DNA of 64,000 nt from the NCBI RefSeq assembly GCF_022788655.1, contig NZ_CP084951.1, forward strand, positions 2,914,001-2,978,000. Reading direction: 5' to 3'. Positions 2,719 through 8,313 of this stretch are shown here, one piece after another. The position numbers and the translations under genes are program-made. Within the stretch, counting starts at the first letter, position 1. The number at the start of each line of letters is the position of its first letter. This DNA is from Sulfitobacter indolifex. Its GTDB lineage: Bacteria; Pseudomonadota; Alphaproteobacteria; Rhodobacterales; Rhodobacteraceae. Below the pieces are notes generated by a model that saw nothing but the letters and a program-made list of their open reading frames with translations, had not been told where the DNA came from and searched no databases.

Positions 2719-4056
2719 TCAGCCGCGTGCTTTGACGGTCTGCAACAGCGGCATAACCTGCGCCATCTCTGGCCCATGCTCTTGCCCCGTCAGCGCCAAA
2801 CGCAAAGGCCGGAACAACCCGCGCCCCTTGCGGCCCGTGGCTTCCTTGACCGCGGCGGTCCAGCTTGACCATGTGCTCTCGTCAAACGGCATGTCAGGCA
2901 GCAGCAGCATGGCCTGAGCTACGAACTCGCGGTCTTCTTCGGCGATGATCGGCTCGGCACCGTCGCGGAACATAACCCACCACGCATCAAGGTCTTTCAG
3001 CGTCGAGATATTTTCTCGCGTGACGGCCCAGAACTGCCCCGCCTGATCTTCAGGCACGCCAATGGCTGTGATGTCGTCCTTCACCGCCTCAAGGGGCAGC
3101 TGCTGCAAATAGCGCCCTGTCAGTGGGAAAAGATCTTGAACGTCAAACTTCGTGGGGGCCGACCCAAAGCGGTTGATGTCAAAGCCGTCGATCAACTGCG
3201 CCATCTCGGTGCGCAGTTCCACCGGATCGGACGACCCCAACCGCGCCATCAGGCTCAAAAGCGCAAAGGGCTGAACCCCCTGCTCTCGCAGATCACGCAG
3301 GGCCAATGTGCCCAAGCGTTTGCTCAGTGCTTCGCCCTGCGGGCCGGTCAACAGCGAGTGATGCGCAAAGGACGGCACAGCGCCGTTGCCCAGCGCCTGC
3401 ATGATCTGGATCTGTGTCGCGGTATTGGTCACATGGTCCGAGCCGCGCACGACATGGGTCACGCCCATGTCAGTGTCGTCGACAACACTCGCCAGCGTAT
3501 ACAAGATTTGCCCATCGCCCCGGATCAACACCGGGTCACTGACCGATGCCGCGTCGATAGAGATGTCGCCCAGAATACCGTCGTCCCATTCGATCCGCTG
3601 CTGATCCAGCTTGAAACGCCAGACACCCTCGCCACGCTCCGCGCGCAAGGCGGCTTTCTCGTCGTCGCTGAGGTTCAGCGCGGCGCGGTCATAGACCGGC
3701 GGCTTGCCCATGTTGAGCTGCTTTTTACGCTTGAGGTCCAGCTCCGTCGGCGTCTCGAACGCTTCATAGAAACGGCCCTTGGCGCGCAGGTCTTCGGCGG
3801 CGGCGTGGTAGCGGTCCAACCGTTCGGACTGGCGTTCAACCCGGTCCCATTCCAAGCCCAACCATTCGAGGTCTTGCTTGATGCCGTCGACATATTCTTC
3901 GCGGCTGCGCTCGGGGTCAGTGTCGTCGATACGCAGAATGAAAGTGCCGCCTGCCTTGCGCGCGATGAGGTAGTTCATCAGCGCGGTGCGCAGGTTGCCC
4001 ACGTGGATATAGCCAGTGGGGGACGGGGCGAAACGGGTGATCGTAGGGTTGGACAT
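2719..4056 (-). CDS. gltX: Glutamyl-tRNA synthetase
   Basis: This 445-residue class I aminoacyl-tRNA synthetase charges tRNA-Glu. The sequence shows TRFAPSPTGYIHVGNLRTAL (HIGH-equivalent HVGN) and a KMSKS-equivalent reading EALSKR, in which the first Lys of the usual KLSKR is Ala. It is shorter than the usual 465-500 residues, as in one of the two GltX paralogues common in alphaproteobacteria. Which paralogue it is, and whether it also charges tRNA-Gln, cannot be told from sequence alone. I start it at 4056, where ATG follows CAGGAGT; a longer reading adds 11 unlikely residues. It lies 66 nt downstream of the MORN gene on the same strand. Confidence 0.95.
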   Translation of the reverse strand: MSNPTITRFAPSPTGYIHVGNLRTALMNYLIARKAGGTFILRIDDTDPERSREEYVDGIKQDLEWLGLEWDRVERQSERLDRYHAAAEDLRAKGRFYEAFETPTELDLKRKKQLNMGKPPVYDRAALNLSDDEKAALRAERGEGVWRFKLDQQRIEWDDGILGDISIDAASVSDPVLIRGDGQILYTLASVVDDTDMGVTHVVRGSDHVTNTATQIQIMQALGNGAVPSFAHHSLLTGPQGEALSKRLGTLALRDLREQGVQPFALLSLMARLGSSDPVELRTEMAQLIDGFDINRFGSAPTKFDVQDLFPLTGRYLQQLPLEAVKDDITAIGVPEDQAGQFWAVTRENISTLKDLDAWWVMFRDGAEPIIAEEDREFVAQAMLLLPDMPFDESTWSSWTAAVKEATGRKGRGLFRPLRLALTGQEHGPEMAQVMPLLQTVKARG

Positions 4057-4122
4057 CTGGCGTACTCCTGTTGCGCGCGGGCTTGCCACAGGGCGCGGGC
4101 GTTGTCCAGTAATGGCGGGGGA

Positions 4123-5721
4123 TCAGCCGCCGTCTGCTGTGGCGCCACTCGGGGCTGGGACAACCTCTGAAGTGTCCTCTTCAACGCTTTGTTCTTCAGG
4201 GCCATCTTCGGCGGCATTCTCTTCTGCGTCATCCGCTGGCGGTGCCTGATCCGCAGGCAGTGCCTCGCCCTCAGGCGCTTCGGTCTCGGCTTCGGCTTGG
4301 GCTTCGGCTTCGGCTTCGGGTGTGGCCGCAGTGGTGCCGTCGTTCAACGCGCCATTCGCCCAATCGCCCGTAGCTTCTTCGCCGCTGGCATAGCGCATCG
4401 TACCGTTGCCCTGACGTTTGCCCGCCTTGAAGGTGCCTTCATAGACATCGCCATTGGCGTAGGTTGCCACGCCTTGCCCCTCAATCTCGCCATCGGTCCA
4501 GTCGCCCTCGTAAACAAAGCCGCTGGCCATGGTGATCTTGCCCTGACCGTGGCGCTGGCCTCCGGCAAATTCGCCTTCGTAAACCGTGCCGTCGGGATAG
4601 GTTGCCTTACCCTGTCCATGACGCTGACCGTCTTGCCAGCCGCCTTCATAGCGGTAGCCATCAGCATAGGTCATCACGCCTTGGCCGTGGTTGCGGGCGT
4701 CCTTGAATTCGCCCTCATAGACGACGCCATTGGTATAGGTGGCGACACCTTCGCCTTCGATTACGCCGGCGACCCACGCGCCCTCATAGGTCGATCCATC
4801 GGGGTAGGTGATCTTGCCCGTGCCGTCAGCCAGATCGCTGCGGAACGTGCCGACATAGACCGACCCATCGGGGTAGGTCACCTGACCTTCGCCCTCGATC
4901 TGTCCCGCGACCCAAGACCCGGTATAGACATAGCCATCGGTGCCGGTGAACGTCCCCTGCCCGTCGCGGCGGTCGTCCTTGAAGTCGCCTTCATAGGTAT
5001 CGCCATTCTCATAGGTGACCTTGCCCTTGCCCTCACGACGGCCCGCCACCAGCGTGCCTTCGTAAACATCGCCATTGGGCTGGGTCAGCGTGCCGGTGCC
5101 GTCGATCTGGCCGTCTTTCCACAGCCCCACATAGACCAACCCATCGGGCATGGTCAGCGTGCCTTGGCCGCTGCGCTTGCCGCCTTGGATCTCGCCCTCA
5201 TAGACCGCGCCATCGGGGTAGGTGATCGTGCCAACGCCCTGTTTGACGCCATCAACCCAGTCGCCTTTGTACTCATAACCGCCGGGGCTTTGCATCACGC
5301 CCTTGCCGTGGTGCTTGGCATTGCGAAACGCGCCCTCATACCGCACGCCATTGGCATAGATCGCGACGCCTTGGCCCATGATCGCGCCGGCTTCCCACTC
5401 ACCCTCATAGGTGCCGCCATCGGCAAAGGTAATCTTGCCCAGACCTTCGGGCTTGCCCTTGGCGAAATTGCCCTCATAGACCGAGCCATTGGGGAAGCGC
5501 GCGACACCCTCGCCCTTGATCTCACCCTCGACCCATTCACCGGAATACTCATAACCATTAGGCAACTTATAGGTGCCGGTGCCATGCTGGAGCCCGCCTT
5601 GAAAGGTGCCCTCATAGATGCCGCCGTCGTCGTATTCCTTGGTCAGCACCTGTCCGTCTTGCGCCGCGAGCGGGGTGGCAAGAAGGGCAATCAGACAGAG
5701 GGGCAGGCTGCGGTGCAACAT
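4123..5721 (-). CDS. Secreted MORN-repeat protein with acidic tail
   Basis: This 532-residue protein has a signal peptide (MLHRSLPLCLIALLATPLAAQ, cut likely after AAQ). About 18 well-formed MORN repeats follow (pattern G.Y.G.W/F..G...G.G, period 23 residues) and one degenerate copy reading EATGDW. The last ~70 residues are acidic and Ala/Pro/Glu-rich (EAEAEAQAEAE and similar). MORN arrays form extended beta meanders that act as scaffolds or bind lipids in eukaryotes; their periplasmic role in bacteria is not established. It is the upstream neighbour of gltX. The opposite strand is open for 538 codons only because of the repeat composition. The function is unknown. Confidence 0.9.
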   Translation of the reverse strand: MLHRSLPLCLIALLATPLAAQDGQVLTKEYDDGGIYEGTFQGGLQHGTGTYKLPNGYEYSGEWVEGEIKGEGVARFPNGSVYEGNFAKGKPEGLGKITFADGGTYEGEWEAGAIMGQGVAIYANGVRYEGAFRNAKHHGKGVMQSPGGYEYKGDWVDGVKQGVGTITYPDGAVYEGEIQGGKRSGQGTLTMPDGLVYVGLWKDGQIDGTGTLTQPNGDVYEGTLVAGRREGKGKVTYENGDTYEGDFKDDRRDGQGTFTGTDGYVYTGSWVAGQIEGEGQVTYPDGSVYVGTFRSDLADGTGKITYPDGSTYEGAWVAGVIEGEGVATYTNGVVYEGEFKDARNHGQGVMTYADGYRYEGGWQDGQRHGQGKATYPDGTVYEGEFAGGQRHGQGKITMASGFVYEGDWTDGEIEGQGVATYANGDVYEGTFKAGKRQGNGTMRYASGEEATGDWANGALNDGTTAATPEAEAEAQAEAETEAPEGEALPADQAPPADDAEENAAEDGPEEQSVEEDTSEVVPAPSGATADGG

Positions 5722-5925
5722 GGGCGGAAATTCCCGATCTCGTTAAGTGTCATTCGGCCTGAGGTTAAGGGCGATAGACAGCAGAGGCAACGTGTTTGCA
5801 GGTAACGCACGCCGGTTTCGGCCGATGCAGCGCAGCGCGGCACTTCGGACCGCAGGCATGTGGGGGTTTCGCTATGGCTTTGATCTGCTACATCGAACAA
5901 ACGCCAGCCAGCCCGGAGCCTAGCC

Positions 5926-7401
5926 ATGTCAGACCGTTTTCGCCTTACCCTCGGGCAGTTGAACCCCACGGTCGGCGATCTGCCCGGCAATGCCGCACAG
6001 GCGCGCAAGGCATGGGAAGCTGGGCGCGACGCCGGGGCGCAGTTGGTCGCCCTACCTGAGATGTTCCTAACCGGTCATAATGCCAAAGCATTGCTGCGAA
6101 AGCCTGCATTCCAACGCGATGTCTTGACCCACCTGGAAGCGCTTGCCGCCCATTGTGCCGATGGCCCGGCGCTGGCGCTCGGTGCGCCATGGGTCGAAGG
6201 CACGCAGGTTTATAACGCCTATCTGGTCCTTATCGGGGGCAAGATCGCCCATCGGGTGCTTCAACACAGCCTTGAACGGGGCTCTGACTTTGATGCTGCC
6301 CCAATCAGCGGCCCCTTTGCGGTCGCGGGGCTGCGCATCGGCGCGCCTATCGGTACCGATGGCTGGACAGGCGATGTGGCCGAAACACAGGCCGAGACCG
6401 GGGCTGAACTTCTGCTCGTGCCCAATGCCGCGCCGCACCAACGAGGGGCGATGGATCGGCGGCTAAACCATATGGTCGCGCGGGTGATTGAGACGGAACT
6501 GCCGCTGATTTACCTCAACATGACCGGTGGGCAGGATGAATTAGTATACGACGGCGGCTCTTTCGCGCTGAACCCCGGAGGCAAGCTGGCGCTGCATCTG
6601 CCTGCCTTCGACGATGCCATCACACATGTGGATTTGGCGCGTGGGGCTGAGGGCTGGCAGATCGTGGCCGGAGACCTCGCGCCCCAACCAGACGCCCTTG
6701 AACGGGACTACCGCGCTTTGGTCGTGGGGCTGCGGGACTATGTGACCAAGATGGGGTTCACTCAGGTGCTTGTCGAACAAGCCGAGGGAAATGATACCGC
6801 GCTGACAGCGGCGCTTGCGCTGGATGCCTTGGGGCCTGAGAATGTCCGCCAGATTGCGCCCCCTGCGAAAGGCACGGCACATTCCGCACTGCGCGACAGT
6901 CTGGCAGAGCTTGGCACAAAGGTGAGTGACGATAGCCTTGCCCCCCATCTGCGCGGCCTGATGCTGCGCGCCTCAGCAGATGCCGCGGGAGAGATGTTGC
7001 TTACTGCGCAGAACAAATCCGCCGCTGCCATTGGGCAGGCGGCGATGCCGGGTGACTTCAATCCCATCAAAGACCTTTATCAGACTGAGGTTGGCGATCT
7101 CTGCCGCTGGCGAAACGATGCCCGCCGGGATTGGATGCTGGGGCCTGTAGATGCGATGCCTGCCCCGTCGCAATATTCTCCAGAAGACAGCGCTCTAGAC
7201 GGCGTCCTGCGTATCCTGCTCAACGAGAATGGCACCGTCGGGGATTGTGTCGCGGCTGGCTATAACCAGCAGTCCGCACGAGAGGCAGCAGAACACATCT
7301 CGATCAGCCAACCTCAAACGCACCGGTCCGCTCCCGGCCCGCAACTGACCGCCATGCGCGCTCCTTACCCCACAGCCGCCCGCTGGCGCGATGCCTCATA
7401 A
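5926..7401 (+). CDS. NAD synthetase (NadE)-like protein with both active sites degenerate
   Basis: This 491-residue open frame aligns by eye along its whole length with glutamine-dependent NAD synthetase (usually ~550 residues): nitrilase-type amidase domain about 1-250, synthetase domain about 258-491. The amidase keeps Glu45 (LPEMFLTG), but the expected Lys is Gln113 (RVLQHSL) and the nucleophile Cys is Gly143 (APIGTDGW instead of PICED.W). In the synthetase domain the ATP PP-loop SGGIDS reads AEGNDT (286-291), and the NKSE and YGD motifs are altered. About 60 residues of the ATP/NaAD-binding part are missing. The frame is uninterrupted, with no frameshift or internal stop. I infer a NadE-derived pseudoenzyme or a decaying paralogue; a functional nadE should exist elsewhere. 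Confidence 0.85.
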   Translation: MSDRFRLTLGQLNPTVGDLPGNAAQARKAWEAGRDAGAQLVALPEMFLTGHNAKALLRKPAFQRDVLTHLEALAAHCADGPALALGAPWVEGTQVYNAYLVLIGGKIAHRVLQHSLERGSDFDAAPISGPFAVAGLRIGAPIGTDGWTGDVAETQAETGAELLLVPNAAPHQRGAMDRRLNHMVARVIETELPLIYLNMTGGQDELVYDGGSFALNPGGKLALHLPAFDDAITHVDLARGAEGWQIVAGDLAPQPDALERDYRALVVGLRDYVTKMGFTQVLVEQAEGNDTALTAALALDALGPENVRQIAPPAKGTAHSALRDSLAELGTKVSDDSLAPHLRGLMLRASADAAGEMLLTAQNKSAAAIGQAAMPGDFNPIKDLYQTEVGDLCRWRNDARRDWMLGPVDAMPAPSQYSPEDSALDGVLRILLNENGTVGDCVAAGYNQQSAREAAEHISISQPQTHRSAPGPQLTAMRAPYPTAARWRDAS

Positions 7402-7632: not shown

Positions 7633-8313
7633 ATGAATATCGTTAAACTTGGAATGGTATCTGCCATCGCTTTGAGTGCTGCTGCACCTGTCTATGCACA
7701 GTCGGCAGAGGCCTATGCCGCAACCGATCTTAACATCCGTTCGGGCCCCGGCCCGCAGTTCGACATTGTGGGTGTCATCCCCGGTGGCGAAGCCGCAATG
7801 GTCGAAGGCTGCCTTGACGGCCAATCTTGGTGCCAGGTAAAATTCGGCGACGCAATGGGCTGGTCCTCCTCTGACTATCTTGCCGTTGGCGTCGAAGAGC
7901 AGGCCGTGGCCTTGGCCACCCGCCCTGCAAGTGTCGAAGTCGGCACCGTGACCTATGAAAACCCCGAAGGCACAGCCGAGAATGAGACTGCAGGCGCGAC
8001 TGCTGGCGCCACACTGGGTGCTCTGACAGCCTATGCGGTTGGCGGCCCGATCGGTGGCATCATTGCCGGTGGCATTATCGGTGGCGCAGCGGGCTCCGCC
8101 GCAGCCGAGCCGGAAGAGAAAACGATCACCTATGTCCGCGAGAACCCAGTTGAAACCGTCTACCTTGACGGCGAAGTTGTTGTCGGCGCAGGTATCCCAA
8201 AGACAGTAACAACATTCGAAGTGCCGGAATCGGACTACCGTTATGTGAACATCAACGGCGCAACTGTGCTGGTCGACAATGAGACAAACTTGATCGTCGA
8301 CGTTGTGCGCTAA
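7633..8313 (+). CDS. Secreted SH3b-domain and DUF1236 protein
   Basis: This 226-residue protein has a signal peptide ending at about residue 22 (AAPVYAQ). A bacterial SH3 domain follows (about 26-86; LNIRSGPGPQFDIVG, GWSSSDYL) with a Cys pair (GCLDGQSWC). A glycine-rich, Gly-zipper-like segment lies at about 115-155 (GGIIAGGIIGGAAG). The C-terminal DUF1236 domain ends VLVDNETNLIVDVVR. SH3b domains often bind cell-wall peptides, so a periplasmic or envelope role is likely. The gene stands alone, with a strong terminator just behind it. Its exact function is unknown. Confidence 0.85.
   Translation: MNIVKLGMVSAIALSAAAPVYAQSAEAYAATDLNIRSGPGPQFDIVGVIPGGEAAMVEGCLDGQSWCQVKFGDAMGWSSSDYLAVGVEEQAVALATRPASVEVGTVTYENPEGTAENETAGATAGATLGALTAYAVGGPIGGIIAGGIIGGAAGSAAAEPEEKTITYVRENPVETVYLDGEVVVGAGIPKTVTTFEVPESDYRYVNINGATVLVDNETNLIVDVVR

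Follow-up and report, generated by a model that had tools for sequence, protein, structure and literature searches.

NadE is a textbook essential enzyme, and the locus described here raises the question of why a bacterium would carry a nadE-like gene in which both catalytic centres are replaced and the reading frame is open. The gene lies in the window, a stretch of 64,000 nucleotides (G000:C1:2914001-2978000) from the 3.27-Mb contig C1 of a Sulfitobacter genome totalling 4.5 Mb, where it begins with ATG and runs through 491 codons without interruption (Table 1). A first-pass annotation had described it as a NadE homologue with the amidase nucleophile Cys exchanged for Gly143, the catalytic Lys for Gln113, the PP-loop rewritten as AEGNDT and about 60 residues missing, and had favoured a selected pseudoenzyme over recent decay. 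The residue changes and the uninterrupted frame are borne out by alignment with 14 Sulfitobacter NadE2 proteins, and the shortfall amounts to 61 residues relative to the 552-aa canonical NadE2.

All 14 canonical proteins carry the glutaminase Glu, Lys and Cys, positions occupied in the window protein by E, Q and G, the retained acidic residue being Glu45. The S-G-G-D-S columns of the PP-loop, likewise present in all 14, read A-E-G-D-T, and the T-G-N-K-S-E columns read A-Q-N-K-S-A (TAQNKSA for TTGNKSE). The main deletions affect the central part of the synthetase domain and the QKDSDSLPDY loop. Pfam recognizes CN_hydrolase at 62 bits and NAD_synthase at 45.1 bits, the latter in two stretches, and the NCBIfam model PRK13981 gives 343.6 bits, where its cut-off is 479 and the canonical protein of G027 reaches 766.7. 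Set against a functional NadE2, the window protein thus lacks an above-cut-off PRK13981 score, the Glu-Lys-Cys triad, SGGxDS and TTGNKSE, while synteny and tree position establish its descent from the nadE2 of the genus.

Table 1. Features of the window gene and its surroundings (positions counted from the first letter of the window).
Feature	Position	Strand	Basis
Degenerate NadE2 (pseudoenzyme), 491 aa	5926..7401	+	ORF, alignment, NCBIfam score
Amidase (nitrilase-fold) half, residues 3-262	5932..6711	+	Pfam; boundary chosen by the authors
Eroded synthetase half, residues 263-491	6712..7398	+	Pfam, omega
Codon 113, catalytic Lys to Gln	6262..6264	+	Alignment
Codon 143 (GGT), nucleophile Cys to Gly	6352..6354	+	Alignment
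Former PP-loop, SGGIDS to AEGNDT, residues 286-291	6781..6798	+	Alignment
Promoter-like element GATCTGCTACATC (extended -10-like)	5882..5894	+	Conservation; putative promoter role
GGAG, likely ribosome-binding site	5915..5918	+	Putative role
MORN-repeat-like protein, left neighbour	4123..5721	-	Named by eye
gltX-like gene, left flank	2719..4089	-	Named by eye
SH3-like protein, right neighbour in several relatives	7633..8313	+	Named by eye

The degenerate gene, or relic, adjoins a gltX-MORN pair; several genomes also have an SH3-like gene next to it (without a match at the loci of G023, G003 and G064), and the canonical nadE of G027 and G035 shares part of this neighbourhood. Because the window gene occupies the canonical nadE place of its relatives, a chance open reading frame is ruled out; an assembly artefact is also ruled out, as the eight relics come from separate genomes and agree with one another. 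One of the relic loci belongs to S. dubius DSM 16472. Upstream of the gene, GATCTGCTACATC, which we take to resemble an extended -10 promoter element, is identical in all eight readable Sulfitobacter relics and at three of the four canonical loci compared, and constitutes the sole match with at most one mismatch within the 64-kb window. No match to it is found upstream in G315, a genome of another genus that also holds a relic, or in the relatives of G315; there, GGTCTGCTATGTGG lies upstream of the relic and is common to G380. As a separate observation, relic dS between G023 and G003 is 0.10 versus 0.37-0.87 at six flanking genes, suggesting recombination at the relic locus between these two genomes.

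A second nadE, the lack of which had been named as a point against the pseudoenzyme reading, is present on the 200.7-kb contig C4: the gene encodes NadE1, scoring 1071.8 bits against the NCBIfam PRK02628 cut-off of 473. A PF02540 search of the genome returns the window ORF, the C4 gene and two short matches of low score (29.7 and 20.5 bits), and NadE1 and NadE2 share about 30% identity over the parts that align. Since C4 holds an intact NadE1 of another class, the window gene represents the displaced original, and NAD in this genome is presumably made by NadE1. The plasmid records nearest to the C4 NadE1 are 12 Sulfitobacter records at 93-95% identity.

Across 62 genomes of the genus, NadE1 is present in nine (G000, G003, G023, G025, G029, G069, G062, G071 and, in broken pieces, G064), and a search with the window protein finds degenerate NadE2 in nine, namely the NadE1 carriers minus G071 plus G068. 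The two-piece match typical of full-length NadE2 occurs in 51 of the 62 genomes (motifs read in 14 of these) and in none of the nine NadE1 carriers, eight of which hold the dead NadE2 and the ninth of which, G071, has no assembled locus. In G071, no NadE2 is found, and the whole 10-kb neighbourhood gives only an 80-base weak match in an assembly that is 88% complete; G071 is therefore rejected as evidence that a relic has been lost, the nadE neighbourhood itself being absent from the assembly. G068, a 99% complete draft, has a degenerate NadE2 with no NadE1 or other NAD synthetase found. It holds about 2 kb of replicon sequence at 80% identity, elsewhere than NadE1; our guess is that its NadE1 lies on a missing assembly stretch, an unusual NAD route being the alternative. 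In G064, phr, NadE1 and the NadE2 relic all carry frame breaks, which suggests assembly errors; with phr and NadE1 broken too, this copy is set aside as evidence of decay. The motif and rate tests leave out G064, G071 and G016, whose NadE2 match is a contig-end fragment.

The RepABC-8 chromids of Sulfitobacter are described as homologous replicons that a common ancestor acquired and that persisted "due to an essential function" (PMC9025767), and the chromids treated in that paper include CP020695, CP085170, CP085146 and CP084954. Section 3.2 of the paper leaves the essential function unnamed and "nad" has no match in its main text; the main text of a 2026 survey of Sulfitobacter plasmids (PMC13386836) likewise has no whole-word "NAD". 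NadE1 is carried by three of the four chromids (CP020695, CP085170 and CP085146), the fourth, CP084954, being absent among the NadE1 matches. We infer that NadE1 is a candidate for the essential function of the RepABC-8 chromid, offering a possible answer to the question left open in section 3.2 of PMC9025767. A CinA-family gene is located directly before NadE1 in Sulfitobacter sp. D7 (L190 8519-11082) and close before it in G315 (L218). CinA stands beside NadE1 in six of nine stretches searched, G064 not being among the nine, and, being missing there in G000, G003 and G023, forms no part of the argument.

Selection on the relics was estimated with a codon model of our own, GY94 type with F3x4, which has no site classes and ignores recombination, although recombination is likely; on eight neutral simulations, this estimator returns omega values of 0.95-1.30. 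The six-relic tree gives an omega of 0.216 with a likelihood-ratio statistic of 402 against omega = 1, a value that each of six overlapping partitions also rejects (P 2e-6 to 2e-89). Among the same six relics, omega is 0.133 for the amidase half (residues 1-262) and 0.299 for the synthetase half. Gly143 is common to all eight aligned relics, and therefore divergence among the relics postdates loss of the nucleophile. The window gene accordingly differs from a pseudogene in its open frame and in an omega that is not near 1, and it shows the marks of a pseudoenzyme: a recognizable family member with its catalytic residues lost and purifying selection after that loss. Canonical NadE2 has an omega of 0.060 (eight sequences); in pairwise estimates, omega ranges over 0.16-0.33 for the relic (six pairs), compared with 0.016-0.126 across seven flanking genes; and a branch model of 22 sequences, run to a 40-iteration limit, assigns 0.055 to canonical branches, 0.22 to the stem and 0.18 to the relics. 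Because relic omega lies above that of canonical NadE2 and of the seven flanking genes, constraint has been relaxed, and selection on the relic is plainly weaker than on the working enzyme.

Frames are open in eight of the nine relics of the genus, the broken one being that of G064. The G062 relic has lost its C-terminal tail and comprises 448 aa, and that of G069 stops about 12 codons early at a TAG (cut there in the motif and tree tests, and read through for the last 12 codons in pairwise omega). In the seven pairs examined, drawn from six relics, every gap has a length divisible by three, and sense-codon position 3 is richest in substitutions in all five pairs counted (87, 74 and 212 for G000-G025). 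Neutral simulation from the window sequence, with substitutions only, produces a mean of 8.6 in-frame stops per copy over 1000 runs; all six frames stay open in none of the 1000, the maximum being one of six copies. A fresh pseudogene is rejected by omega, by the open frames and by this simulation. The first-pass annotation had pointed to frameshifts or a dN/dS near 1 among orthologues as evidence that would count against it; both were looked for, and the eight readable relics are open, with an omega of 0.22 and omega = 1 rejected. Its proposal of a pseudoenzyme under selection is supported by this codon-level evidence together with a separate example from another genus.

The AlphaFold2 model of the window protein reaches a pLDDT of 87.7 and a pTM of 0.87, with 21 of the 29 alignment rows being non-relic NadE2 that may impose the fold, and is weakest at residues 311-340 and in the C-terminal tail. 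A Foldseek search with this model ranks the NadE structures 4f4h and 3n05 at the top. Within the amidase half, strands 4-11, 82-91, 94-103, 136-139, 213-215 and 231-240 and helices 149-157 and 175-190 are conserved in relics at about the canonical level. Other amidase elements (e.g. 162-167 and 200-210) are less conserved, and most synthetase elements much less so, in this comparison of seven relics (G315 included) with eight canonical proteins, sets that are unmatched for divergence. The pattern may be read as an amidase scaffold kept for binding. Additionally, R64, I127, S128, L136, G143, A168, A264, A351, E388 and L392 are fixed in six relics and absent from the eight canonical proteins.

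The second case comes from G315, which combines a NadE1 of 1073 bits with a 512-aa NadE2 relic bearing PLGED for PICED (Cys to Gly), having lost its PP-loop and keeping Glu45. In three other species of the genus, NadE2 is canonical and no NadE1-like sequence is found. The G315 relic groups with the NadE2 of its own genus at a support of 1.000 in both protein and nucleotide trees and sits between matching flanks; passage of one dead allele between Sulfitobacter and G315 is rejected on these two grounds. Omega on the G315 relic branch is 0.17 (likelihood-ratio statistic 52.9), a branch that includes time before the loss; this comparison takes in G381 and leaves out G359. At five of seven sites derived in both relic lineages, the residue is the same (background 0.146, binomial P 0.001). 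Three of the five (168, 264 and 392) show the common state of 11 more distant NadE2 proteins, leaving only C143G and S351A as clean convergent sites, and one of the 11 has C143G as well; we lean only lightly on sequence convergence between the two relic lineages.

In the wider family, represented by 296 evenly drawn genomes at nearly one per genus, above-cut-off NadE2 is present in 281. NadE1 was searched in 18 genomes with weak or split NadE2, plus G068, a search that did not cover 276 of the 296, and is present in eight of the 18. Seven of these eight have a single NadE2-model match each, at E values of 1e-59 to 1e-67, and the C4 NadE1 itself cross-matches the NadE2 model at 7.5e-62. Seven other genera thus appear to have NadE1 without NadE2, a reading in which the match places are not listed and a relic weaker than 1e-40 would escape, and so the relic is apparently not generally needed. 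Two further NadE2 genes were noted in passing: L205 (G289) has intact NadE2 motifs in a frame that ends early after GDMAGGY, and the NadE2 of an Oxalobacter MAG (L107 5001-6551) has Asn at the catalytic Cys position with intact synthetase motifs.

The explanation we favour, at a probability of roughly 0.7, is that the relic is the displaced original nadE2, kept as a folded non-catalytic protein that likely binds through its amidase scaffold. A Sulfitobacter ancestor would have acquired the NadE1-bearing replicon, rendering the chromosomal nadE2 redundant; the glutaminase nucleophile, whose loss is common to all relics seen, would have gone early, followed by the PP-loop and the substrate loops. 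The dead NadE2 would then have been retained, probably still made and selected as a folded protein. Its most likely role would be for the amidase scaffold to bind something that NadE2 already bound, the leading candidates being PII proteins or a ligand, for example NAD or glutamine. In other bacteria, dimeric NadE2 is reported to be bound by PII proteins, which relieve its inhibition by NAD (PMC7196632), and PII is for this reason the leading partner candidate, a tentative choice made by analogy that could easily prove wrong.

Much of the same evidence bears on a slowly decaying pseudogene, a gene only weakly constrained since NadE1 took over, for example against misfolding or stray glutaminase activity, and on its way to being lost. 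Such decay would agree with the relaxed omega, the tail loss in G062, the early stop in G069, the broken copy in G064 and the apparent absence of NadE2 from seven other NadE1-bearing genera, but it is difficult to reconcile with rejection of omega = 1 in every partition, open frames in the eight readable relics, gaps in multiples of three, the conserved upstream element and the large synonymous divergence since the common Cys-to-Gly change (tree dS 1.87 for six relics, and 4.87 for G062 and G068 with three of the six); we consider it unlikely. That the amidase pocket or remnant synthetase domain has gained a new enzymatic activity, one operating without the Cys, is quite improbable: every relic seen has Gly in place of the nucleophile, Lys113 has become Gln in six of the eight aligned, and no obvious new nucleophile appears among the ten relic-fixed residues, even though Glu45 persists in all eight aligned Sulfitobacter relics and in G315 and the amidase half is the more constrained.

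Eight of the nine Sulfitobacter genomes with NadE1 have a relic, as does G315, which could alternatively mark the relic as a direct subunit or regulator of NadE1; the first-pass annotation had likewise suggested a possible regulator or binding partner of true NadE. This is very unlikely, given that the classes are distant and their assemblies differ elsewhere (PMC7196632), that G068 has a relic with no NadE1 found, and that seven genera apparently have NadE1 without a relic; a simple NadE1-relic mixed dimer is less likely because NadE1 belongs to a different class. Finally, antisense ORFs are present in the interval, and the constraint might be ascribed to an overlapping antisense gene, RNA or DNA element with the protein itself irrelevant; substitutions peak at sense-codon position 3 in five of five pairs, as for sense coding, making this scarcely credible.

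Under the favoured explanation of a displaced, non-catalytic binding protein, the sequence comparisons support the view that this marine Sulfitobacter and its close relatives keep a dead NAD synthetase at its original chromosomal place, where it appears to evolve as a useful protein. A doubly dead NadE2 under selection would uncouple catalysis from a role in binding or sensing. More speculatively, a NadE2 displaced by a foreign NadE1 might persist as a sensor of nitrogen or NAD status, for example through PII binding, with catalysis shed; the family would have seen two or more such events, every one with Cys to Gly at the nucleophile, and in Sulfitobacter the takeover would have made the replicon indispensable. 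In the literature searched, with most subscription journals outside its scope, no NAD synthetase pseudoenzyme or nadE pseudogene was found, nor, judged by title, any related paper on NAD synthetase in Sulfitobacter.

Among known systems, the window protein most resembles NadE2 (PRK13981; PDB 4f4h, 5kha) in domain order, modelled fold and ancestral locus, and is 54-57% identical to ten canonical Sulfitobacter NadE2 proteins; it differs in lacking the Cys nucleophile, catalytic Lys, PP-loop and substrate loops and in falling below the curated cut-off. The octameric-class NadE1 (PRK02628; assigned by score, the class being named after PMC7196632) is a separate, distantly related gene on C4. A Comamonadaceae NadE2 (L111 5001-6650) carries the same Lys-to-Gln and Cys-to-Gly changes but keeps SGGIDS and TTGNKSE, and may on this basis make NAD from ammonia, whereas in the window protein both centres are gone. 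Pseudoenzymes combine a dead active site with continued selection on the protein, and it is pseudoenzymes in general that the window protein resembles in its dead site and in the selection acting on it.
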